Notes under the pieces: model-generated | Database searches by the model: none | Seen by the model: the letters and a program-made list of their open reading frames with translations, nothing else | Told to the model about the DNA's origin: nothing | Shown: positions 3,541-61,271 of the stretch, piece after piece | Layout of the letters: each line of letters opens with the position of its first letter | Numbering within the stretch: position 1 is the stretch's first letter | Position numbers and translations under genes: made by a program | IMG/VR virus record: IMGVR_UViG_3300032083_000576 | Coordinates: 1 to 61,271 of that record | Reading direction: 5' to 3' (one strand) | DNA: 61,271 nt | Source: a virus

Positions 3541-3714
3541 ATGAAGGGTGTAACGCATTACAAAAGAGACGGGAGACCCTATAAAGGGGGTACTCATAAA
3601 ATGCCTAACGGAACTTTACATTCAGGGAAATCTCATGGCAAAACAAGTGAGAGATTATATCATTTTAAAGATTTAAGTAAAAAAGCTAAATTAAAAGTAA
3701 AAGGAAAAAAATAA
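3541..3714 (+). CDS. Basic 57-residue protein
   Basis: A Lys/His/Gly-rich, strongly basic protein starting at the ATG directly after the lysozyme stop and ending in an overlap with the next ATG. The N-terminal part carries THYKRDGRPYKGGTHKMPNG. Together with the two following basic proteins it forms a trio of small nucleic-acid-binding-type proteins. Possible roles are DNA condensation or minor virion components; this is inferred from charge only. Confidence 0.65.
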   Translation: MKGVTHYKRDGRPYKGGTHKMPNGTLHSGKSHGKTSERLYHFKDLSKKAKLKVKGKK

Positions 3715-3896
3715 TGCCAAGTAAAAAAACACATAAAACTAAAGACGGCAGAACAGCTAAAAAAGGTCTTTATTACTATATAAATAAAAAGAAAGCAGAA
3801 GGCAGGAAGCCACGTAAAAAAGGAGCTAAAGGTGCTCCGACTGCTGCTGCTTTTAAACGTTCAGCTAAAACAGCTAAAAAACCTAAAAAGAAATAA
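3714..3896 (+). CDS. Lys-rich 60-residue protein
   Basis: Very basic, with a Lys/Ala/Gly-rich C-terminus (AKTAKKPKKK) and a short Tyr cluster (GLYYYINKKK). Histone-tail-like composition suggests nucleic-acid binding. It is overlapped by one base with both neighbours in the operon. No named family is assigned. Confidence 0.7.
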   Translation: MPSKKTHKTKDGRTAKKGLYYYINKKKAEGRKPRKKGAKGAPTAAAFKRSAKTAKKPKKK

Positions 3897-4195
3897 TGGC
3901 TACTAAGCGCAAAGAAAAGTCTATACGACGCACTACGAAAGGAAAAGGTGCTAATTACCGTAAGACTAAATCTGGCGCGGGAATGACGGCTAAGGGTGTA
4001 AAAGCCTATAGGAAGAAAAATCCTGGATCTAAACTTAAAACAGCTGTTACAGGTAAAGTTAAAAAAGGTAGTAAAGCCGCAAAAAGAAGAAAATCTTATT
4101 GTGCAAGGTCAGCGGGACAAATGAAGAAGTTCCCTAAAGCCGCCAAAAATCCTAATTCTAGGTTGAGACAAGCAAGAAAGAGATGGAAATGTTAA
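3896..4195 (+). CDS. Basic Cys-containing phage protein, DUF6321-like
   Basis: 99 residues, extremely basic. The pattern SGAGMTAKGVKAYRKKNPGS, then KLKTAVTGKV, then a Lys-rich stretch, a Cys-Ala-Arg segment and a terminal RKRWKC resembles a small conserved family of marine-phage proteins (DUF6321-like, from memory). Two conserved-looking Cys residues near the end could bind metal or form a disulfide. A DNA- or RNA-binding role is inferred from charge. Confidence 0.75.
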   Translation: MATKRKEKSIRRTTKGKGANYRKTKSGAGMTAKGVKAYRKKNPGSKLKTAVTGKVKKGSKAAKRRKSYCARSAGQMKKFPKAAKNPNSRLRQARKRWKC

Positions 4196-4196
4196 T

Positions 4197-4625
4197 ATGT
4201 ATGAATATAGTTGCACAGTTGAAAGAGTGGTTGATGGAGATACTATCGACGTTGTGTTGGATCTTGGGTTTGATATTATGTATAAGTCTCGTGTTAGGTT
4301 ATATGGGATTGATACTCCCGAGTCACGTACTCGTGACCTGGATGAAAAGGCTAGAGGAAAAATGGCTGGGGCTTTCTTAAAAGCTGCTATTGAAAAAGGT
4401 ACTAAAGTTGTTATACAAACTGAAGTAAAAGATTCAAAAGGTAAGTATGGAAGAGTTTTAGGAAACGTTGTGGTTGACGGAGTTAATATAAATAAAAAGA
4501 TGATAGAAAGTCATTTAGCTGTTGCTTATTTTGGACAATCTAAAAACGACGTAGAAGAAGAACATTTAGTTAATAGAAATAAATTAATTGAATTAGGTAA
4601 ATTTAATCCTCAGGAGTTGTTATGA
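4197..4625 (+). CDS. Staphylococcal nuclease-like (SNase/TNase) protein
   Basis: 142 residues spanning one SNase OB-fold domain. Visible active-site elements are VVDGDTIDV (metal Asp), RVRLYGIDTPES (catalytic Arg, Asp-Thr and Glu) and KYGRVLG (second Arg). These match the Asp21/Arg35/Asp40/Glu43/Arg87 set of the family, so it is probably active on DNA or RNA with Ca2+. It has no signal peptide and is therefore likely cytoplasmic. The start at 4197 follows the upstream stop. An overlapping reading frame at 4183-4380 is a shadow. Roles could include host-nucleic-acid degradation. Confidence 0.88.
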   Translation: MYEYSCTVERVVDGDTIDVVLDLGFDIMYKSRVRLYGIDTPESRTRDLDEKARGKMAGAFLKAAIEKGTKVVIQTEVKDSKGKYGRVLGNVVVDGVNINKKMIESHLAVAYFGQSKNDVEEEHLVNRNKLIELGKFNPQELL

Positions 4626-5098
4626 AAATAGGTGGAATATTAAAAAGTGTGGTCGGAGCGGTAGCTCCTACCCTAGGTACTGCACTAGGTGGTCCAATGG
4701 GCGGTATGGCGGCTAAAATGATTTCAGAAGTATTGGGTGTTCCTAATACTCCTAAAGCGATAGATAAAGCAATACAAGAAGCCACTCCCGAACAACTTCT
4801 CGAACTTAAAAAAGCAGAACAAGCATTTGAAATTCAAATGAAAGAGCTTAAAGTAGATGTTTTTAAGTTAGAAACAGCAGATATACAAGATGCAAGAGGT
4901 AAATTTTCTAAAGATTGGACAGCCAGAATCATGGGTATAGTTGTTGTGGGCGGTTTTATGGGCTACATATTTTTAGTCACCATCCAGCCTCCTGAGCAAA
5001 ACTCAGAGGCATTGATAAACCTTGTTCTAGGCTACCTTGGTGGTTTAGCTTCTGCGATTATAAGTTTTTATTTTGGAGCGTCTCAGAAACAAGACTAA
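4622..5098 (+). CDS. Holin of the 3-TM superfamily type
   Basis: 158 residues with a Gly/Ala-rich amphipathic N-terminus, a charged helical middle (residues ~55-95) and two clear membrane helices, around IMGIVVVGGFMGYIFLV and the region ending ASAIISFYFGASQK. The FYFGAS ending is characteristic of the Holin_3TM group. It overlaps the nuclease stop and the next ATG. It would form inner-membrane lesions that release the lysozyme encoded 1.1 kb upstream. Confidence 0.75.
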   Translation: MKIGGILKSVVGAVAPTLGTALGGPMGGMAAKMISEVLGVPNTPKAIDKAIQEATPEQLLELKKAEQAFEIQMKELKVDVFKLETADIQDARGKFSKDWTARIMGIVVVGGFMGYIFLVTIQPPEQNSEALINLVLGYLGGLASAIISFYFGASQKQD

Positions 5099-5448
5099 TG
5101 GATCAAGCAGTAACATTTATAAACGAAGTTGGTTTTCCTATTGCAGCAGCACTAGGTTTAGGTTTCTTTATATGGAAACTTATCAATAGAATTATTGATG
5201 GTATGGAAACAAAGTTAGATGTACTAGACGAAAAAGTTGCAGTACAAATAGCAGCAATGGAAGAAAGGCTAGGGGGCAAACTAGATTCACAACATGGTAT
5301 TTTAGTAGCTTTGATAGATAGAATAAGATCTCTTGATAATGAAATTATTAGGCAAGATACTATGATCAAAACAATCCTAGGAGTTCCTAATCTTATAGAT
5401 ATAGATAAAATCGCTAAAGCGGATAGAGACGACCAACGTAAAGATTGA
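5098..5448 (+). CDS. Membrane-anchored coiled-coil protein, holin/BhlA-like
   Basis: 116 residues: a hydrophobic helix at about residues 10-31 (FPIAAALGLGFFIWKLI), then a long heptad-rich region, then a charged C-terminus. The topology resembles BhlA/UviB-type holin-like proteins. It sits directly between the 3-TM holin and csgF, sharing overlapping stops and starts with both. A role as second holin or lysis accessory is likely but unproven. Confidence 0.7.
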   Translation: MDQAVTFINEVGFPIAAALGLGFFIWKLINRIIDGMETKLDVLDEKVAVQIAAMEERLGGKLDSQHGILVALIDRIRSLDNEIIRQDTMIKTILGVPNLIDIDKIAKADRDDQRKD

Positions 5449-5915
5449 TGAACAAACATGATAATCTTTTTGCAATAATAGGTTTATCTATAGTATTACT
5501 TGTAGTAGTTCTACAACAAGTACAGGCTGATGAAATGGTACATCAGTTTAAAAGTCCTTCTTTTAACGGAGAAGGAACTTCTAGTCATTATTTAACTATA
5601 GAAAACCAAGAAGCTAATCGCAAACAAGCTATAGAAGAAGAAATACAGGCTCTTAAAGACGAAATAGAAAGAGAAGAAAATAACACAGTGGAAGCTAGGT
5701 TTATGCGCAACCTTACTTCACGAATTTATGCAAACATTGCTAGGCAAGTAGAGGCTGCATTGTTTGGAGAAGATACAAACAAAAGTGGATCTATGGAACT
5801 TGATGGAAACACGATAGATTATGAGATTACGGAAGAGGAGGTTAGAGTTACAATCACTGATGAAGACGGCAATACAACAGAAGTTATCGTACCTATTGGT
5901 GGTTTTACTTTCTAG
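5448..5915 (+). CDS. csgF: CsgF-like curli assembly factor
   Basis: 155 residues. Residues ~1-28 are a signal peptide (hydrophobic IIGLSIVLLVVVL, then a VQA cleavage site). The mature N-terminus HQFKSPSFNG followed by Ser-His-Tyr-Leu matches the CsgF segment that plugs into the CsgG channel (compare FRNPNFGGNP in E. coli). The rest keeps the CsgF order: a helical RFMRNLTSRIYANIARQVEAA region, then NTIDYEI and VRVTITDEDGN beta strands ending in a VPIGGF segment. It should be secreted and cap the CsgG pore. The ATG overlaps the upstream stop; a TTG one codon earlier is less likely. The csgG start lies inside its 3' end. Confidence 0.87.
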   Translation: MNKHDNLFAIIGLSIVLLVVVLQQVQADEMVHQFKSPSFNGEGTSSHYLTIENQEANRKQAIEEEIQALKDEIEREENNTVEARFMRNLTSRIYANIARQVEAALFGEDTNKSGSMELDGNTIDYEITEEEVRVTITDEDGNTTEVIVPIGGFTF

Positions 5916-6660
5916 TTGTGCTTTGATGATTGATCCGCTAGAAAATAATTTACCACCAATCAAGCATATACAACCTGCTTCGATTGAGAAACTATACACT
6001 GCTTTAGCGGATGTCGAAGAGCCTTCTAGGAAACCAGTTATTTCCGTATATGCTAATGATTTTAAAGATCAAACAGGACAACGTAGATCGAATGCTAAAT
6101 ATGCAACTTTTGCTACAGCAATTACACAAGCACCGCATGCATACCTTATACGAGCACTTAAACACTCTGGGTTTTTTGAAGTAGTCGAACGAGTCGCTCT
6201 TGAATCAGTTAGTAAAGAAAGACAACTAATTCGTTCAACTCGAGAAACGTTTGACGAAAAACAAAAACTCTTACCCCTCAAATTTGGCGATATGATTATG
6301 ACAGGTGGAGTGTTATCGTATCAAGCAAATATAAGTTCTGGAGGAGCAGGGGCTAGAAATTTAGGAATAGGTTTTTCTAAACAATATAGAGAAGATATAA
6401 TTACTATTAGTTTACGAACGGTCTCAGTAAGTACGGGCAGAGTCCTTACTGAAGTGTTGGTTACTAAAACTGTTTTATCAGCTTCTTTAGATAGTGATGT
6501 TTTTAGATTTATAAGTCAGGGAACAGAGCTTATAGAGATAGAAGGAGGAAATGTTAGGAACGAGCCGATGAGCGTAGCTTTACAAATAGCTATCGAAACA
6601 GCTGTGTTAGAAACAATTAAAGAGGGTTTAGATAAAAATTATTGGAGGTTAATACAATGA
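5860..6660 (+). CDS. csgG: CsgG-like outer-membrane curli secretion channel
   Basis: About 266 residues. Starting at 5860 gives a lipoprotein signal whose lipobox LSSC places the lipidated Cys at residue 20. Family signatures follow: ISVYANDFKDQTGQRR, a LIRALKHSGFFEVVER stretch, RQLIRSTRE, SSGGAGARNLGIG, a TISLRTVSVSTGRVL segment, a FRFI box and a NEP followed by an IETAV helix. These align along the whole length of E. coli CsgG, which forms a nine-fold outer-membrane pore. The first 56 bases overlap csgF in another frame. An upstream in-frame start at 5821 would put charged residues before the signal and is rejected. Confidence 0.93.
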   Translation: MKTAIQQKLSYLLVVLLSSCALMIDPLENNLPPIKHIQPASIEKLYTALADVEEPSRKPVISVYANDFKDQTGQRRSNAKYATFATAITQAPHAYLIRALKHSGFFEVVERVALESVSKERQLIRSTRETFDEKQKLLPLKFGDMIMTGGVLSYQANISSGGAGARNLGIGFSKQYREDIITISLRTVSVSTGRVLTEVLVTKTVLSASLDSDVFRFISQGTELIEIEGGNVRNEPMSVALQIAIETAVLETIKEGLDKNYWRLIQ

Positions 6661-7370
6661 AAAAATATCTATTTATACTTATATTTTGTGCACCTATTTA
6701 CGGAGCAGATAACGAAATATTCATTGATCAAAGTTCAGGAGCATCTAATTCTAATATAGATTTAGAACAGTTAGGTTCTGGTAATATTATCGGAGGAGCC
6801 ACTGCAGCAGCAGGTTCTATGACTGATTTAAATTTAGTAGGGACAGCACTTAATTTAGATATAAATCAGATTGGCGATACAAACAAGTTTTTGGGTGATA
6901 TTGTTTCAGATTCATATACAGGGTTTTTTGAGTTTGATGGCAACAGTAATACTTTTAATATGAACACCGATAAAACAGCAACTTACGGAGCAGATTCATC
7001 AAATGTTAATGTAGACGTGACTGGAAACAGTAATACATTTACTTTAAATCAAGCCACTTCTGCCTTAGCCAGTACATTAGACTTGGATTGGATTATCAAT
7101 GGTTCTAGTAACACAATCACATCTTCGATCAATGTGGATGCTGCTACAAACTATGTCAACATAGACGGATCAGATAATGCTTTAACACATACAGCCACTG
7201 GTTATGCGGGTAATTACTTTTACCTAGACCACGACGGGGCTAATAGAACATTTAACATCACACAATCATCAACATTAGATAATGACTGGCTCAAAATACT
7301 TAGTTCTGGTACTAGCACTTCTACTGTCTGCGTCATTCAAAACGACCAAGGCACAGGCACAAGCTGTTGA
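6657..7370 (+). CDS. Curlin-like secreted repeat protein (candidate CsgG substrate)
   Basis: 237 residues. GGAGG at 6644-6648 sets the ATG at 6657, giving a signal peptide ending near IYG-ADN. The mature protein is Asn/Ser/Thr/Gly-rich with degenerate curlin-like repeats: LEQLGSGNIIGG, INQIGDTNKFLGD, FDGNSNTFNMN, VTGNSNTFTLNQ, INGSSNTITSS and IDGSDNALTHT. The Gln-x-Gly-x-x-Asn and Gly-x-Ser-Asn-Thr core resembles CsgA/CsgB repeats. Two Cys bracket the C-terminal VIQNDQGTGTS. It overlaps the csgG end by four bases. An amyloid-forming or nucleating substrate is inferred; the repeats are looser than in true CsgA. Confidence 0.72.
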   Translation: MKKYLFILIFCAPIYGADNEIFIDQSSGASNSNIDLEQLGSGNIIGGATAAAGSMTDLNLVGTALNLDINQIGDTNKFLGDIVSDSYTGFFEFDGNSNTFNMNTDKTATYGADSSNVNVDVTGNSNTFTLNQATSALASTLDLDWIINGSSNTITSSINVDAATNYVNIDGSDNALTHTATGYAGNYFYLDHDGANRTFNITQSSTLDNDWLKILSSGTSTSTVCVIQNDQGTGTSC

Positions 7371-8400
7371 TATAGGAAGTATCAGTGAGCTAAAAGGTAA
7401 TGCTCAGGTTGTACGAGACAAGCCGTATGGCGCAGAACTATCGTTTCCTATCCAGCAAATGGATAATGTCAAAACAGAAACTGGTCGAGTCGCGATTACG
7501 TTTGCTGACGATACGATTGTTCGCGTTATGGATCATAGTAGGTTAGTTATAGATACATATATTTATGATCCTAATCCTAAAAAATCTGAGATGGCTCTTA
7601 GGTTTGCTAGTGGAACAGCAAGATTCGTAACAGGTAAATTTAATAATAAAAAGAATATAAAAATCAGTACTCCTAGTGCTGATGTGTTTGTTAGAGGCAC
7701 AGATTTTACAATTACAACAACTCCAGAAACAGGCGCTTCTTTAGTTATTTTATTGCCCGACGAGTACGGAGAATCTAGTGGGGAGATAGTTGTCGCCACA
7801 GCTATGGGGCAAGTTGTATTAAACCAACCGTATCAAGCTACAACAGCTATGACCTATAATCAAGCCCCTTCTAAACCTGTGACGTTAGATATAAGTTTAG
7901 AGTTTATAGATAACATGTTAATAGTAAACTCTCCTAATGAAAAAGATAATATAGAAGAAGAATCACAAACAGGTACTACAGCAGATTATTTAGATTTTAA
8001 TGATTTAGATGTAGATTTTTTAGCAGAAGATTTTTTAGATAACGAAGCTGATTTAACATTTACAGAACTAGATATAAATTATCTTGACGTAAACTTTCTT
8101 GAAGACTTACTTAATATACTTGATGCTTTAGCCGTAGGAGCTGAAGAAGATCAATTAAATCAAATTGCGACTGGAATAAAAATAACAGGTACACAAATAG
8201 GTCAGGACAAAGTAAGCCAAATAACAACAATTATTACAGGACAACTTATTAGTTTTAGACGAAGCGTAGGAGAAACAGTACGAATAGACCTTGACGGATC
8301 AAGTTCTTATACCTTAGTTTTGTTACAAAATGGTGTAGAAAATATAATAAAAGTTAACGGTGGTTCTTCAAATACTATAAACATAAAACAAGGAAACTGA
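7282..8400 (+). CDS. Exported FecR-domain protein
   Basis: 372 residues with a signal peptide (YLVLVLALLLSAS, cleavage near AQA). A FecR-type beta domain spans about residues 30-150, with TETGRVAITFADDTIVRVMD, LRFASGTARFVTG and STPSADVFVRGTDF. After it come an Asp/Leu-rich low-complexity segment at ~230-285 (repeated DFNDLDVDFL-type units) and a C-terminus ending NGGSSNTINIKQGN that again resembles a curlin repeat. It is likely periplasmic. Its first 89 bases overlap the upstream gene out of frame and its last base overlaps the cyclase start. In bacteria FecR-domain proteins are often encoded next to CHASE2 cyclases, so it may feed a signal to that sensor. Confidence 0.85.
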   Translation: MTGSKYLVLVLALLLSASFKTTKAQAQAVDIGSISELKGNAQVVRDKPYGAELSFPIQQMDNVKTETGRVAITFADDTIVRVMDHSRLVIDTYIYDPNPKKSEMALRFASGTARFVTGKFNNKKNIKISTPSADVFVRGTDFTITTTPETGASLVILLPDEYGESSGEIVVATAMGQVVLNQPYQATTAMTYNQAPSKPVTLDISLEFIDNMLIVNSPNEKDNIEEESQTGTTADYLDFNDLDVDFLAEDFLDNEADLTFTELDINYLDVNFLEDLLNILDALAVGAEEDQLNQIATGIKITGTQIGQDKVSQITTIITGQLISFRRSVGETVRIDLDGSSSYTLVLLQNGVENIIKVNGGSSNTINIKQGN

Positions 8401-10154
8401 TGAAGAAAATAGTTTTTACAATTTTATTTATAGTTTTACTTTTTCCGTTAGCGTTTCAAACAACTCCGTTAGAAGTATTAAAACTAAAAACATTTGATGC
8501 TTTTCTTCCTAAACAACAACCTTCTGGTTATTTTACAATTTTAAATATTACAGAAGAAGACATAACAAACGAGGGGGGATATCCTTTATCCAGACAGACC
8601 TTAGCACAAATACAAATTAACTTATTACGGAAAGGTGCGATAGGTGTCGGGTGGGTTGTTGCTTTTCCACAACCCGATAGATTCGGAGGAGATTTCGAAT
8701 TTATGGAAGCGCTAGGTTTTGCTCCTAGTGTGTTAGCTATGTATGAAAACGATACAGATAATTACCCACCGACCACAGGGACAGTAATTTTAGGAGAAAA
8801 TATCGGGGGGATAGAAGCTCAAGGAGTGGTACAAAACATAGACGTCTTAAAACAAAATGCGTCTCAAGGAATTGCAGTAGCTAGACCTGAAGTTGATTCT
8901 TTAGTTCGTAGATTACCTTTGTTATTAAGAACTCCTGATGGATTCGTGCCAGCTTTTGGAACAGAAGTTTTAAAAATATTAGCTGGAGCAGATACCTATG
9001 TTATTAAAACAAACGAAAATGGTTTAGAAGAAATAAGAGTAAAAGGTTTACCTTCTGTTCCTGTAGATTCTTACGGTAGAAAATGGGTAAGTTGGGTAGA
9101 TACCCCACAGACCACGTTACAAGAAATGAACGTAGAAAATAAGTTTGTTTTTGTGGGGTTTACTGCTAAAGGAATTATGCCCCAGTTAAGTACCCCTGTT
9201 GGCTATCTTGAGCCTCATAAAATACAAACCGCATTAGCCGAAAGTATTCTTATAGAAAATAGTCCATACGTACCTGATTATGCTTTAGCTGTAGAGCTTC
9301 TTATCTTTTCTGTAGTTATAAGCTTAATCTGGTTAGTTTTAAACGTATTCGGAATAACCTCTGGAATAGTATTAGCTACCCTTATTTCTTTCTTAACTGC
9401 GTTTTCTGGGCTTTATTTAATAAAAAACGGGTTATTAATAGACGTAACATGGACATTAATAGCTGGAATCTTAACAGGGACAACAGCTTTTTATATAAAC
9501 TATCGGACACAATTTAAATTACGTCAACAGATTAAAAAACAATTTGAACATTATTTAGATCCTCGCCAAGTAAAACAACTACAAAACAATCCTGAGTTAT
9601 TAAAATTAGGAGGTGAAAAAAGGTACTGTACCTTTCTGTTCACAGATGTAAGGGGATTTACAGCTATGAGCGAAAGTATGCCTCCAGAAGAAGTTACTAT
9701 AATTATGAATAAAGCATTGACTATTCAACAAAAAGTTGTACAAAAACATGGGGGCATGGTGGATAAATATATAGGCGATGCAATGATGGCTATCTTTAAC
9801 GCACCGTTAGATTTAGAAAACCATGCACATAAAGCAGTTCTTGCTGCTATAGAGATACAACAACTTATAAAAGAAGAAAATATTGGAATAGAAATCGGAG
9901 TTGGATTAAATACAGGTGACGCTGTTATTGGCAACATGGGCAGTGACACTCGTTTCGATTACACCGCTATTGGCGACGCTGTAAACACTGCGGCTAGAAT
10001 GGAGAGTAGTTGTAAGGAAGTAGGAGAAGATATAGTGATTACGGAAAACACAGCATCACAAACTCAAATAGAACTTAGACCATTAAAACCTATAAAAGTT
10101 AAGGGGAAAGAAAAAACAATTAATATATACACAGTCAATGATCTTGAAGTATAA
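8400..10154 (+). CDS. CHASE2-domain class III adenylate cyclase
   Basis: 584 residues: an N-terminal membrane anchor (1-20), an extracytoplasmic CHASE2 sensor (~25-290), three membrane helices (~295-315, 320-342, 347-367) and a cytoplasmic class III cyclase domain (~405-580). Catalytic features are complete: metal Asp416 (FTDVRGF) and Asp460 (DKYIGDAMMA), purine-selecting Lys456 and Thr522 (FDYTAIGD), and transition-state Asn529 and Arg533 (NTAAR). The Lys/Thr pair favours ATP, so cAMP is the expected product. It is the last gene of the csg cassette. Its full length and intact residues argue that it is active. Base specificity is not proven from sequence. Confidence 0.9.
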   Translation: MKKIVFTILFIVLLFPLAFQTTPLEVLKLKTFDAFLPKQQPSGYFTILNITEEDITNEGGYPLSRQTLAQIQINLLRKGAIGVGWVVAFPQPDRFGGDFEFMEALGFAPSVLAMYENDTDNYPPTTGTVILGENIGGIEAQGVVQNIDVLKQNASQGIAVARPEVDSLVRRLPLLLRTPDGFVPAFGTEVLKILAGADTYVIKTNENGLEEIRVKGLPSVPVDSYGRKWVSWVDTPQTTLQEMNVENKFVFVGFTAKGIMPQLSTPVGYLEPHKIQTALAESILIENSPYVPDYALAVELLIFSVVISLIWLVLNVFGITSGIVLATLISFLTAFSGLYLIKNGLLIDVTWTLIAGILTGTTAFYINYRTQFKLRQQIKKQFEHYLDPRQVKQLQNNPELLKLGGEKRYCTFLFTDVRGFTAMSESMPPEEVTIIMNKALTIQQKVVQKHGGMVDKYIGDAMMAIFNAPLDLENHAHKAVLAAIEIQQLIKEENIGIEIGVGLNTGDAVIGNMGSDTRFDYTAIGDAVNTAARMESSCKEVGEDIVITENTASQTQIELRPLKPIKVKGKEKTINIYTVNDLEV

Positions 10155-10229: not shown

Positions 10230-10724
10230 ATGAGTAATTTTTTTGTAGTGGGATTACCTAGAAGCCGTACAGCTTGGTTGGCTAATTTCTTAACATACGA
10301 AAATAAATTCTGCTTTCACGAAGGCATCAACGGTTGTTCTACCCTAAAAGAATACAAAAACAAACTTGGGGACAATAAAGGAGACAGTTGTACTGCGTTA
10401 ATGTTATTAAATTTAAACAAAGAATTCCCTGAAGCTCCTGTAGTTGTTATTGAAACAGATACAAAAAGAGCTATAGAATTTTCTAAAGAAATTTACGGTA
10501 AAGACTTAACTCAAGAGATGAATGTATTAAATGAACAAATGAAGTTTATAAAAGGATTAAGGATAAGGTTAGAAAATTTAGATAATTCTCTTGAAGAAAT
10601 ATGGACATATTTAATCGGAACCTCGTACAATAAAGAAAGAGGGGATTTATTAAAAAATATGAACATCCAAACAAATAATTTTAATTACGACATAAAAGCT
10701 GCAGGAGAATTGTTATGCCGATAA
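10230..10724 (+). CDS. Sulfotransferase-like P-loop protein
   Basis: 164 residues. The N-terminus FVVGLPRSRTAWLANFL has the 5'-phosphosulfate-binding loop signature of sulfotransferases (PRSRT followed by hydrophobics). The rest is short compared with typical sulfotransferases (>250 residues) and the 3'-phosphate-binding motif is not obvious, so it may be a reduced or diverged member. It has its own GGAAGGGG ribosome binding site and overlaps the next gene. Modification of a surface glycan or virion component is a guess. Confidence 0.6.
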   Translation: MSNFFVVGLPRSRTAWLANFLTYENKFCFHEGINGCSTLKEYKNKLGDNKGDSCTALMLLNLNKEFPEAPVVVIETDTKRAIEFSKEIYGKDLTQEMNVLNEQMKFIKGLRIRLENLDNSLEEIWTYLIGTSYNKERGDLLKNMNIQTNNFNYDIKAAGELLCR

Positions 10725-26861: not shown

Positions 26862-27713
26862 ATGTCATCTATAAGAAAAAAATTAAAAGTTAATGAAAAC
26901 GATAGCAAAAATACTCGTATGGATTTAGCTTCTGCAGGAGTCCTAGGAAACTGGAGACCTGATGAATTAGCTCATATGAGTCGATTCGATAAAATTGCGA
27001 GTCTTGCTATAGAAGAGGCTAAATTGTTAGGCAGACCATTAGATACCTTAGAAATAGGTTGTGGTGAGTGTTGGTCTTTACGTGTGCTTTATAAAGCGTA
27101 CGTCGTAAAAAAGTCTGATATTATTAGTTCGTATAAAGGATACGATATTGATCCTGCCTGTGAACTAGATAATAGGTTCTGGTCTAACGGCGGTGGAGAA
27201 CTAAAAGATTCTACTTGGTTTAAGAATTTCAATGGCGAAATACGTATACAAGATTTAACAACTAATCCGATATTAGATATACCTGACGAAAGTATAGATT
27301 TCTTTTGGTCTACTGAAGTTATAGAACACATGGGTAGAGAATTTGTTCCACCATGGCTTGATGAAGCTGCAAGGGTTATGAGACCTGATGCTATCGCTTA
27401 TATATCAACACCCAACCATGACGGCTCTAACGATAAGTTGCCCGAGGATCATGTCTACGAATGGGGTTTTCAAGAATTAAAAGAAGAACTAGAAAGAAAC
27501 TTCCGTATAGAAGCAGTAACAGGTACGTTTATGCAAATGCCTAAATTAAAGAAAGCTATGTCTCAAGTAACTGAAATGAATGCTAGAGGGTGGAGCATAG
27601 AACAACTTTTAATGTTACAAGAACGTTTCGGTAAACAGTTTTTAAGAATGGCGGCAGCTGTATTCTATCCAGAGATAGCAAACAACTGCGCGTGGAGGCT
27701 CGTTAAGAAGTGA
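26862..27713 (+). CDS. SAM-dependent methyltransferase
   Basis: 283 residues with a Rossmann-type class I fold: motif I TLEIGCGECWS (residues ~63-72), YKGYDIDP (motif II), IDFFWSTEVIEHMG (post-motif II) and AARVMRPDAIAYISTP. No DNA-methyltransferase NPPY/DPPY or PCQ motif was seen, so the substrate is unclear; a small molecule, a modified base or a protein are all open. It has the extended RBS GAAAGGAG and a promoter-type motif upstream. Its stop overlaps the modification-type gene that follows. Confidence 0.82.
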   Translation: MSSIRKKLKVNENDSKNTRMDLASAGVLGNWRPDELAHMSRFDKIASLAIEEAKLLGRPLDTLEIGCGECWSLRVLYKAYVVKKSDIISSYKGYDIDPACELDNRFWSNGGGELKDSTWFKNFNGEIRIQDLTTNPILDIPDESIDFFWSTEVIEHMGREFVPPWLDEAARVMRPDAIAYISTPNHDGSNDKLPEDHVYEWGFQELKEELERNFRIEAVTGTFMQMPKLKKAMSQVTEMNARGWSIEQLLMLQERFGKQFLRMAAAVFYPEIANNCAWRLVKK

Positions 27714-28606: not shown

Positions 28607-28828
28607 ATGAGCGGATATAAAGATATAGCTATAGATTTATTAGAACAATACGGGGATGTAGTAGATATATATTACACACAGTTTTTAGAGGTGGCTTTCT
28701 TTTTAAAAGTACCTGCAAGCTACGAAATGGCTTTAGGTTTCTTAAAAAAGAAACTACCACAACTTACAGACGAACAATTACATTTCCTAATTAACGAAAT
28801 AACAAGCGCATACCAAGATACGATATGA
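28607..28828 (+). CDS. Small helical protein
   Basis: 73 residues with its own extended GAAAGGAG site. It is acidic and helical (MSGYKDIAIDLLEQYGDVVD). It sits between the modification-type gene and the thymidylate synthase homologue, overlapping the latter by four bases. No family is recognised. Confidence 0.7.
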   Translation: MSGYKDIAIDLLEQYGDVVDIYYTQFLEVAFFLKVPASYEMALGFLKKKLPQLTDEQLHFLINEITSAYQDTI

Positions 28829-29868
28829 AAGTAATTCGAGCAAGAAACGTAAACGACGCTCTACTATTGGGATTAGATTTATTCCAAGACCCTCGTAACT
28901 TTCGTGAACAAGAAAGCAGGAACGGAACAACTTACGAGGCATTAGAACCTGTAACAACAGTATATGAAAAACCATGGGAAAGAGTATTGCTTCTTAAGAT
29001 ACGAGACGCTAATCCATTTTTTCATTTTATAGAGGGCTTATGGATGTTGGCAGGTCGTAAAGATTTAGCGCCATTAACTCGATATGTTAAATCTATGGAG
29101 AACTTTTCTGACGACGGAGAAACTCTATGGGGAGCCTACGGTTGGCGATGGAGAGATTATTTTCATAAAGACCAAATTACTATGGTTATTGATATGTTAC
29201 GTAAAAACCAAGACGAAAGACGATGCGTATTACAGATGTGGGATGCTAATAAAGACCTTGCACGAGCTAGTAAAGACGTGCCATGTAATACGAATATCTA
29301 TTTTAAGATACGGGATAAAAAACTACATATGACTGTTTGTAATCGTTCTAACGATATGCTTTGGGGAGCTTACGGTGCTAACGCAGTTCATATGTCTATG
29401 TTACAAGAATATATCGCAGGACATCTTGAAGTCGAAATAGGAACATATAGACAAATTAGTGATAGTTTTCACGTATACCATAACGAAGTATGGGAAAGGG
29501 TAAAAGGTTTAGAAATAGACCCATGGACTTATTCTAATTTAAAGAACCCTTACGATACGCTAGAAGGGATCGTATATACCAACTTTATAACTAACCCTAA
29601 AACTTTTGATCGGGAGTTAGATCGATTCTTTAATATGCCTCCTGAGGATATAGATTTATATCAAGACGGGTGGGAAAATGCTGCTTTTGTAGATATAGCA
29701 TTACCCATGGTAAGGACGTTTAACGCACATAAAAACAAAGATTACATACAAGCATATCGAGAAGTTATGAAAATTCTACCAAACGACTGGATGACAGCTT
29801 GTTTTGATTGGATTAAAAAGAGAGATTTATCTTGGACACTTAATAACGAAGGAGGAAACAATGGATAA
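28825..29868 (+). CDS. Thymidylate synthase / dUMP hydroxymethylase homologue
   Basis: 347 residues of the ThyA fold. Recognisable elements: FFHFIEGLWMLAG (catalytic-side Glu70), the phosphate-binding pair in DERRCVLQMWD (Arg132/133), the nucleophile Cys154 in DVPCNTN, GAYGANAVHMSM (Asn186, the dUMP-recognition Asn rather than the Asp of dCMP hydroxymethylases) and SDSFHVYHNE. In ThyA the Cys is usually followed by His; here it is Asn. The canonical hydrophobic ThyA C-terminus is replaced by a longer, charged one. These differences and the neighbouring gene leave open dUMP hydroxymethylation instead of methylation. Confidence 0.85.
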   Translation: MKVIRARNVNDALLLGLDLFQDPRNFREQESRNGTTYEALEPVTTVYEKPWERVLLLKIRDANPFFHFIEGLWMLAGRKDLAPLTRYVKSMENFSDDGETLWGAYGWRWRDYFHKDQITMVIDMLRKNQDERRCVLQMWDANKDLARASKDVPCNTNIYFKIRDKKLHMTVCNRSNDMLWGAYGANAVHMSMLQEYIAGHLEVEIGTYRQISDSFHVYHNEVWERVKGLEIDPWTYSNLKNPYDTLEGIVYTNFITNPKTFDRELDRFFNMPPEDIDLYQDGWENAAFVDIALPMVRTFNAHKNKDYIQAYREVMKILPNDWMTACFDWIKKRDLSWTLNNEGGNNG

Positions 29869-59680: not shown

Positions 59681-61271
59681 ATGGCAAGCACATACGTAAA
59701 TGACCTTAGACTTAATGAAATGGCGACAGGTGATGCGTCAGGAAGCTGGGGAACAGTCACAAACACCAACTTAGAGTTGATCGGCGAAGCTTTAGGCTTT
59801 GGCACAGAAGCAATAACCACCAACGCAGATACGCATACATCTACAGTAGCAGATGGAGCTACAGACCCAGTAAGGGCGATGTATGTTAAATATACAGGCA
59901 CATTAGATTCAGCTTGTACAATTACTATTGCACCTAACACAATCAATAGGATGCAATTTATAGAGAACGGAACAAGTGGTTCTCAAAACATAGTAATTTC
60001 ACAAGGCTCTGGAGCTAACGTAACGATCGCTCCTGGTGATGCAAAAGCAGTTTACCTAGATGGTGCTGGTTCAGGAGCAGCAGTAACAGATGCTTTTGCT
60101 AGTCTTTCTGTAGTAGACCTAAAAGTACAAGACGATTTAACAGTTACAGATGATGCCTCAGTAGGTGGTGATTTAGCCACAACAGGTGCTTCTACAGCAG
60201 CCAGTTATAATGGCATAACCAGTAAGACCTTTGGTACATCCTCCATAATGATTGGAGACAATGCGACTGGTACTATAGATGCTGCTAACTATAATGTTGG
60301 ATTAGGTGTAGATGTTTTTGCAGCTTTGACTACTGGAGACTATAACACTGCTGTAGGTTTTAGTTCTTTAAAAGACCTTACAACAGGAACTCGTAATGTT
60401 GCAATGGGTGATTCTACTCTTGAAAATAATACTACAGCTAATGATAATACTGCATTTGGTTCTGCTGCTTTATATTTAAACACTACAGGAAATAACAACG
60501 TAGCAGTAGGTGCAGCAGCTTTAAATGGAAATGTAACAGCACATAGGTCAACCGCCGTAGGTTACGAAGCTTTAAAAGTTTCTAACGTATCTGGTAATTC
60601 AAATGCTTCTAACACCGCAGTAGGTTTTCAAGCAGGACTTTCTACAACTACAGGAACTGCAAATGTTTTTATAGGTTCACAAAATGGAGATGCAAATACC
60701 ACAGGAAGTAACAACACAGCCGTAGGTTTAGGTGCTTTATCTGATAACACCACAGCAGCTAACAACGTAGCCGTTGGTTTTCAGTCTTTACTAGCAAATA
60801 CGACAGCAGCAGATAATACGTCTGTGGGTTCACAAGCTTTACTAGCAAACACAACTGGTGCTTCAAATACCGCAATCGGTAGAGCAGCCTTACAAGCAAA
60901 CACTACAGGTGGTACTAACACCGCAGTTGGTGCAGTGTCCTTAGACGCTAACACAACAGGTGCGGCAAACACGGCTCTTGGTAATGCGGCATTAGGGGCT
61001 AACACGACTGCAAATGCAAATACAGGAATAGGCAATAATGCTTTAGTAGCAAATACAACGGGTGCTGCTAATTCTGCTGTAGGTAGTGGTGCTTTAGCCG
61101 CAAACACCACAGCATCTAACAATGTAGCAGTTGGCTATAACTCTTTAACAGCAAACACTACAGGTGCAAATAACGTAGCAGTTGGTTCTCTTACTTTAGA
61201 TGCTAATACTACAGGTTTAGAAAACACAGCAGTTGGTCAAGGTTCTATGTCAGGAACCACTACAGGTAGTT
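59681..61271 (+). CDS. Tail fibre with repeat shaft (partial, 3' end missing)
   Basis: Open to the end of the window, so the product is incomplete (about 530 residues visible). The N-terminus (MASTYVNDLRLNEMATGDAS then GSWGTVTNTNLELI) is a common phage tail-fibre start that attaches to the tail. From residue ~190 the protein is a run of degenerate repeats of the NTAVGFQALLANTTGA type, similar to trimeric autotransporter-like shafts. The host-binding tip lies beyond the window. GGAG lies upstream of the ATG. Confidence 0.82.
   Translation, partial: MASTYVNDLRLNEMATGDASGSWGTVTNTNLELIGEALGFGTEAITTNADTHTSTVADGATDPVRAMYVKYTGTLDSACTITIAPNTINRMQFIENGTSGSQNIVISQGSGANVTIAPGDAKAVYLDGAGSGAAVTDAFASLSVVDLKVQDDLTVTDDASVGGDLATTGASTAASYNGITSKTFGTSSIMIGDNATGTIDAANYNVGLGVDVFAALTTGDYNTAVGFSSLKDLTTGTRNVAMGDSTLENNTTANDNTAFGSAALYLNTTGNNNVAVGAAALNGNVTAHRSTAVGYEALKVSNVSGNSNASNTAVGFQAGLSTTTGTANVFIGSQNGDANTTGSNNTAVGLGALSDNTTAANNVAVGFQSLLANTTAADNTSVGSQALLANTTGASNTAIGRAALQANTTGGTNTAVGAVSLDANTTGAANTALGNAALGANTTANANTGIGNNALVANTTGAANSAVGSGALAANTTASNNVAVGYNSLTANTTGANNVAVGSLTLDANTTGLENTAVGQGSMSGTTTGS

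Follow-up and report, generated by a model that had tools for sequence, protein, structure and literature searches.

A type VIII (curli) secretion cassette of a marine phage and the putative FecR-CHASE2 cyclase sensor pair linked to it

Introduction

Parts of a curli-like module of ocean phages were published in 2020 and 2022 (PMC7029224, PMC9004378), and Wittmers et al. 2022 described a type VIII secretion system (T8SS) cluster that nine HTVC023P-type genomes share with pelagiphages of the myovirus type, in the order histidine kinase (HK), CsgF, CsgG, CsgA/B, FecR, often a second curlin, and adenylate cyclase (PMC9599517). The second curlin was frequent, not universal; the cluster of pelagiphages was found to be expressed in the environment, and known Pelagibacter lack this secretion capability (PMC9599517). 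As for function, 'sibling capture' was proposed by Zaragoza-Solas et al. 2020 for pelagimyophages (PMC7029224), and a role in lysis by Buchholz et al. 2022 for phage Melnitz (PMC9004378). Here, we analyzed a 61,271-nucleotide stretch of viral DNA (IMG/VR record IMGVR_UViG_3300032083_000576, positions 1 to 61,271, hereafter the window), in which five intact genes at positions 5448-10154 code for CsgF, CsgG, a protein with curlin-like repeats, a secreted protein with a FecR domain, and a class III adenylate cyclase with a CHASE2 sensor.

An initial annotation of this DNA was aware of no phage unit combining pore, channel factor, candidate amyloid, FecR protein, and cyclase. Such a unit had in fact been published in 2022 (PMC9599517), and the cassette of the window belongs to that module of ocean phages. 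Likewise, the three functions put forward for it largely repeat published hypotheses, that is, superinfection block or aggregation, import, and lysis timing. What is new here is that a small gene, cc116, is the constant first gene of the cassette, that the FecR allele is linked to the cyclase, and that the cyclase is optional. We read the whole as two parts, a type VIII (curli) secretion cassette carried by the phage and, linked to it, an alphaproteobacterial-type FecR-CHASE2 cyclase sensor pair; the sequence comparisons lead us to give this reading a probability of about 0.55.

Results

The cassette is a unit of six genes, not five, because the gene at 5098-5448 always precedes CsgF. Likely starts were corrected, using signal peptides and overlaps, to 5448 for CsgF, 5860 for CsgG, and 6657 for the curlin-like gene. 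The cassette genes, followed by a flanking gene, are:

5098..5448, + strand: cc116, 116-residue membrane protein, first cassette gene (upstream of CsgF in 237/237 loci)
5448..5915, + strand: CsgF, T8SS extracellular channel factor (PF10614; phrog_35372)
5860..6660, + strand: CsgG, outer-membrane lipoprotein pore (PF03783; PDB 3x2r)
6657..7370, + strand: curlin-like repeat protein, candidate secreted substrate (alignment; Curlin_rpt in relatives; AlphaFold model)
7282..8400, + strand: secreted FecR-domain protein, type 1 allele (PF04773; model; allele analysis)
8400..10154, + strand: CHASE2 sensor and class III adenylate cyclase, predicted to use ATP (PF05226, PF00211; catalytic residues)
4622..5098, + strand: probable holin of the three-transmembrane type, flanking, outside the cassette (phrog_1544)

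The names given to the five genes in the initial annotation were upheld. In Pfam searches, CsgF matched PF10614 over its full length (E 1.5e-19), CsgG matched PF03783 (E 7.7e-49), FecR matched PF04773 (E 1.9e-11), and CHASE2 (PF05226, E 2.4e-23) and Guanylate_cyc (PF00211, E 5.9e-23) were both found in one protein. The profile check fell short for the curlin-like protein, which taken alone had no significant Pfam match, being too divergent for Curlin_rpt. Chance is excluded because of these E-values and of a gene order kept across many contigs. The intact signatures noticed earlier were also seen: CsgG aligned end to end with Escherichia coli CsgG structures (3x2r, E 2.6e-40) and carries the lipobox MKTAIQQKLSYLLVVLLSS/C (LLSSC), and the catalytic residues of the cyclase are all present. 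The mature N-terminus of CsgF is approximately ADEMVHQFKSPSFNGEG.

Presence of the cyclase followed the allele of the FecR domain. Distinct FecR proteins formed two tight types, with a cyclase in 56/56 cases for type 1 and 0/42 for type 2, counts that are not frequencies in nature since two viral scans used FecR as query; more distant FecR proteins fitted neither type (86 with cyclase, 17 without). In the first set, 39 columns were fully discriminating, every one of them within FecR residues 56-177, and the FecR C-terminus, located between the domain and the cyclase, showed no allele split. The cyclase state changed once on the FecR-domain tree as compared with 8 times on that of the FecR C-terminus, 6 on that of CsgG, and 12 on that of curlin; with 201 sequences, it changed twice on the domain and 10 times on the C-terminus. 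Over all these trees, the changes numbered 1-2 for the FecR domain as compared with 5-12 for the FecR C-terminus, CsgG, and curlin. The DNA of two loci, L039 without and L040 with a cyclase, was 100% and 89% identical before the FecR domain, 59% and 58% in the domain, and 96% over the last 70 codons. Moreover, the approximately unbiased (AU) test rejected a single clade of cyclase-bearing rows for curlin (p 0.0002).

A FecR gene adjoined the cyclase relative in 7/7 annotated alphaproteobacterial plasmid loci inspected, and the plasmid matches of the phage FecR stood beside CHASE2-cyclase relatives in 3/3 cases. Three alphaproteobacterial plasmid CsgF-CsgG loci had no FecR or cyclase neighbor annotated. 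This bacterial context comes from plasmids only, a CsgF scan of genome contigs having given no useful bacterial locus. CHASE2 cyclases were reported to cluster with FecR in Campylobacterota (PMC9239204), and a Burkholderia biofilm operon has a FecR gene beside a CHASE2 kinase (PMC5192318). On Ensifer and Shinella plasmids, two of the seven loci above, the FecR and CHASE2 cyclase genes lie beside NHLP bacteriocin exporters. FecR-CHASE2 pairs may generally watch over secretion.

Because the FecR-domain allele predicts cyclase presence while neighboring genes follow other trees, and because bacterial cyclase relatives also adjoin FecR genes, FecR probably acts as partner of the CHASE2 cyclase in the periplasm; co-adaptation of the FecR domain and the cyclase is likely but not proven. 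A different explanation, bearing on the sensor-pair part of our reading only, is that allele and cyclase hitch-hike in one recombination block, without functional coupling. In its favor, most loci have the FecR gene overlapping or abutting that of the cyclase, and the AU test was not significant for the FecR C-terminus (p 0.066). Yet, the C-terminus that intervenes in such a block shows no allele split, L039 and L040 are nearly identical there across cyclase states and strongly diverged in the domain, and FecR-CHASE2 neighbors recur in distant bacteria. We thus regard hitch-hiking as possible, though doubtful.

IMG/VR viral contigs were scanned with CsgG, the cyclase, and curlin as anchors, and two further viral scans were queried with FecR. 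The CsgG scan yielded 62 loci. Among the matches listed in the curlin-anchored scan, cc116, CsgF, and CsgG were present in 46/46 loci with enough upstream sequence, and FecR and the cyclase in 46/46 and 35/46 loci, respectively, with enough downstream sequence. Cyclic AMP (cAMP) is therefore optional and cannot be essential to the module, since the cyclase was absent in 11/46 of these listed cassettes, about a quarter. In 13 contigs with a FecR gene lacking an adjoining cyclase (up to 59 kb), no cyclase was found anywhere; a control contig has one. Conversely, among the matches listed in the cyclase-anchored scan, FecR lay upstream in 66/68 loci, directly so in 49. The search of phage genomes for the same five-gene order, suggested in the initial annotation, thus found it in many marine viral contigs. 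Incidentally, a 1,499-base entry labeled Salmonella phage S.Kent 1-2-1 (OR851715.1) carries csgG and seems to be a host contig gone astray, not phage.

The candidate substrate of the pore, the curlin-like protein, starts with a signal peptide and contains two QxGxxN units along with some five degenerate repeats; two cysteines are located at its C-terminal end. Curlin_rpt was matched by 10 of the 30 aligned members of its family, rows from other phages included (best E 8.6e-6). The AlphaFold model (predicted local distance difference test score, pLDDT, of 81) consists of repeated strand-turn-strand units; it matched three viral BFVD proteins named 'Curlin associated' (best E 4.6e-6, template modeling score 0.74) and had no significant match in the PDB.

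A possibility was that the CsgG/CsgF pore itself matters, as a nutrient channel or for lysis timing, the other genes being regulators. This has been proposed for Melnitz and pelagimyophages (PMC9004378, PMC7029224); in addition, the cassette abuts the probable holin gene and follows a lysozyme gene, in the window and in some relatives, and no CsgE gate gene was identified. In contrast, a secreted repeat protein accompanied CsgG in every curlin-anchored locus among the matches listed and also in the CsgG-anchored loci with enough flank, which is unexpected for a mere pore. The holin, which resembles 'Holin of 3TMs' of phage DSL-LC04 (E 2e-5), adjoins the cassette in only 19/69 loci with both flanks, and its gene is on the opposite side of the cassette in other contigs. 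Overall, a role confined to the pore appears unlikely.

The FecR protein has a signal peptide (~1-27), the FecR domain (~30-180), a linker, and a beta-rich C-terminal tail with a curlin-like QxGxxN motif. Its model matched the PupR signaling domain. Neither a sigma-binding cytoplasmic N-terminal part nor a transmembrane segment was found before the FecR domain in the model, wherein only a signal-peptide-like helix (3-27) precedes it, and this architecture rules out an anti-sigma regulator. The tail motif QxGxxN (N or H) was present in 161/201 tails versus 3% in shuffles, a hint only as the rows are related, and comparison of the curlin and FecR-tail profiles gave only a weak match of 12 columns. 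Going by its likeness to the curlin repeats, the motif could be a means of sensing the substrate.

The cyclase has the metal-binding, base-selecting, and transition-state residues D416, K456, D460, N529, and R533, T522 being the second base-specificity position. What a class III adenylate cyclase requires is thus present: two metal aspartates, a purine-selecting lysine, and a transition-state asparagine and arginine. D416, K456, D460, and R533 were invariant in 60/60 cyclase relatives, and structure matches included 6fht and 2w01. The window has no gene for a cyclic nucleotide-binding protein, and a target of cAMP, if there is one, must therefore be a host component. Pycsar defense was considered and rejected, as PycC models matched via the shared cyclase fold only and no effector model, such as the PycTM type expected next to PycC, was found among the neighboring proteins.

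One might also view the cyclase as an auxiliary metabolic gene that acts on the host via cAMP and merely neighbors the secretion genes. Conservation of the catalytic residues in its relatives would fit, and so would the fact that the cyclase can be absent while the other cassette genes remain. Its proximity to FecR in 66/68 of the listed loci does not, and cyclase presence tracks the FecR-domain allele, pointing to a local sensor role; moreover, no phage cAMP receptor was found in the window. This makes a purely metabolic role quite improbable.

The first cassette gene product, cc116, has one N-terminal transmembrane segment followed by a coiled coil, and its alignment has no invariant histidine. 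Among INPHARED phages, relatives were found only in HTVC008M and Melnitz. The histidine kinase label is ruled out for cc116, no HisKA/HATPase match being obtained in 17 members. Nevertheless, cc116 is probably what the literature calls 'histidine kinase', so that the discrepancy would lie in the name and no part would be missing: the published HK is short and in some cases present twice, and two genes of this kind occur in HTVC008M and Melnitz; this identity comes from the descriptions, as the sequences of PMC9599517 were not directly compared.

The genome around the cassette is that of a podovirus-like phage, with terminase, portal, DNA polymerase, helicases, and virion proteins. Its polA is nearest to that of 023Pt_psg01 (55%), then HTVC023P (50%). 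For the internal virion protein, DSL-LC04 and Roseobacter phage CRP-901 matched at least as well as HTVC023P-type phages, and no cassette lies downstream of this protein in HTVC023P or 023Pt_psg01. Relatives include phages of Roseobacter and Gammaproteobacteria (DSL-LC04 is a lake phage). A SAR11 host is likely for the phage of the window. The cassette genes are bacterial in type and the first 25 kb of the window had no close DNA match among INPHARED isolated phages, yet bacterial contamination or misassembly is ruled out for practical purposes by many independent viral contigs in which the same or a nearly identical arrangement is flanked on either side by phage genes, and by the presence of the cassette in the isolated phages HTVC008M and Melnitz.

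Elsewhere in the window, a thymidylate synthase gene (28825-29868) and a gene of the 5-hydroxymethyldeoxyuridine (5-hmdU) DNA kinase type (PF18723, 27710-28594) suggest that thymine is hypermodified in the DNA of this phage; upstream of both lies a methyltransferase-like gene (26862-27713). Two small proteins very rich in Lys/Arg (60 and 99 residues), encoded at 3714-4195 between the lysozyme and nuclease genes and kept in close relatives, are possibly DNA-binding or packaged. Directly after the cyclase, a small gene (10230-10724), present in only some relatives, matched the phage hydrolase family phrog_10855 (E 9e-11). An open reading frame resembling a tail spike or virion protein (59681-61270) reaches the window end. 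No terminal repeat was found in the window, and completeness of the record is thus not established; no RNA families were found in it, and its promoters and terminators were at about chance level.

Discussion

Taken together, the gene content and order suggest the following course of events. During infection, CsgG and CsgF would form an outer-membrane pore, through which the curlin-like protein might be exported to the surface of the infected cell, there to build a layer that is amyloid-like or sticky. FecR, once secreted, would stay in the periplasm, sense how secretion proceeds or what state the envelope is in, and set by contact the activity of the inner-membrane CHASE2 cyclase, which would make cAMP in the infected host. 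The benefit could be aggregation or 'sibling capture', or else a block to superinfection; sequence alone cannot tell which.

Several observations weigh against this reading. The curlin-like protein of the window escapes Curlin_rpt, CsgE was not identified with the cassette, and no clumping was seen in Melnitz-infected cultures (PMC9004378). On the signaling side, the window encodes no cyclic nucleotide-binding protein, and the FecR model is good only within its domain. Regarding the linkage, a single cyclase clade was not rejected by the AU test on the FecR C-terminus, and a mirror-tree test of FecR versus CHASE2 was uninformative, all segments correlating at 0.6-0.95 with the FecR domain-CHASE2 pair not singled out. 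Part of the linkage could reflect block exchange of FecR and cyclase.

A more specific idea, offered tentatively and less likely than not, is that FecR acts as a periplasmic secretion checkpoint: its tail would sample the curlin or the CsgG pore and its domain would signal to CHASE2, so that cAMP is timed to export. The two FecR-domain alleles would then be co-adapted forms, one signaling to the cyclase and one working alone. If true, phages would encode a new mode of envelope sensing, and the workings of bacterial FecR-CHASE2 pairs could be guessed from it.

Viral contigs from the sea carry the module widely, and its gene content suggests that it would give the infected cell a secretion capability. 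The linkage between FecR allele and cyclase suggests a partner for CHASE2, whose ligands were called unknown (PMC5192318), and the result on cc116 indicates a correction to the 'histidine kinase' label in the literature.

How does the cassette compare with known systems? It shares the order CsgF, CsgG, curlin, FecR, and cyclase, and a short preceding protein, with the HTVC023P-type module (PMC9599517), and the thymidylate synthase and 5-hmdU kinase-type genes of the window fit clades V, VIII, and IX of that group. It differs in lacking a second curlin, in a preceding short protein without kinase domains, and in a distinct genome. HTVC008M (KC465899) and Melnitz (MZ577097) have the same order, that is, short membrane protein(s), CsgF, CsgG, curlin, FecR, and cyclase, but they carry between FecR and cyclase an extra curlin-repeat gene that the window lacks. 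Their CsgG is ~42% and their cyclase 32-33% identical to those of the window, and they are very different myovirus genomes of 141-147 kb. With canonical curli (E. coli csgBAC/csgDEFG), the CsgG pore, the CsgF factor, and, as a candidate, a curlin-type substrate are shared; in contrast, CsgE, CsgD, and CsgC of the canonical system were not identified for the phage cassette, the candidate substrate of the phage is highly divergent, and FecR and the cyclase are additions of the phage. Finally, the bacterial pairs of alphaproteobacterial plasmids and Campylobacterota (PMC9239204) place FecR next to a class III cyclase of the CHASE2 kind, as in the phage, but in the loci inspected they are not joined to CsgF, CsgG, and curlin, whereas in the phage they are. 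On this comparison, the phage unit resembles a union of two units known from bacteria, one for curli secretion and the other a FecR-CHASE2 sensor pair.

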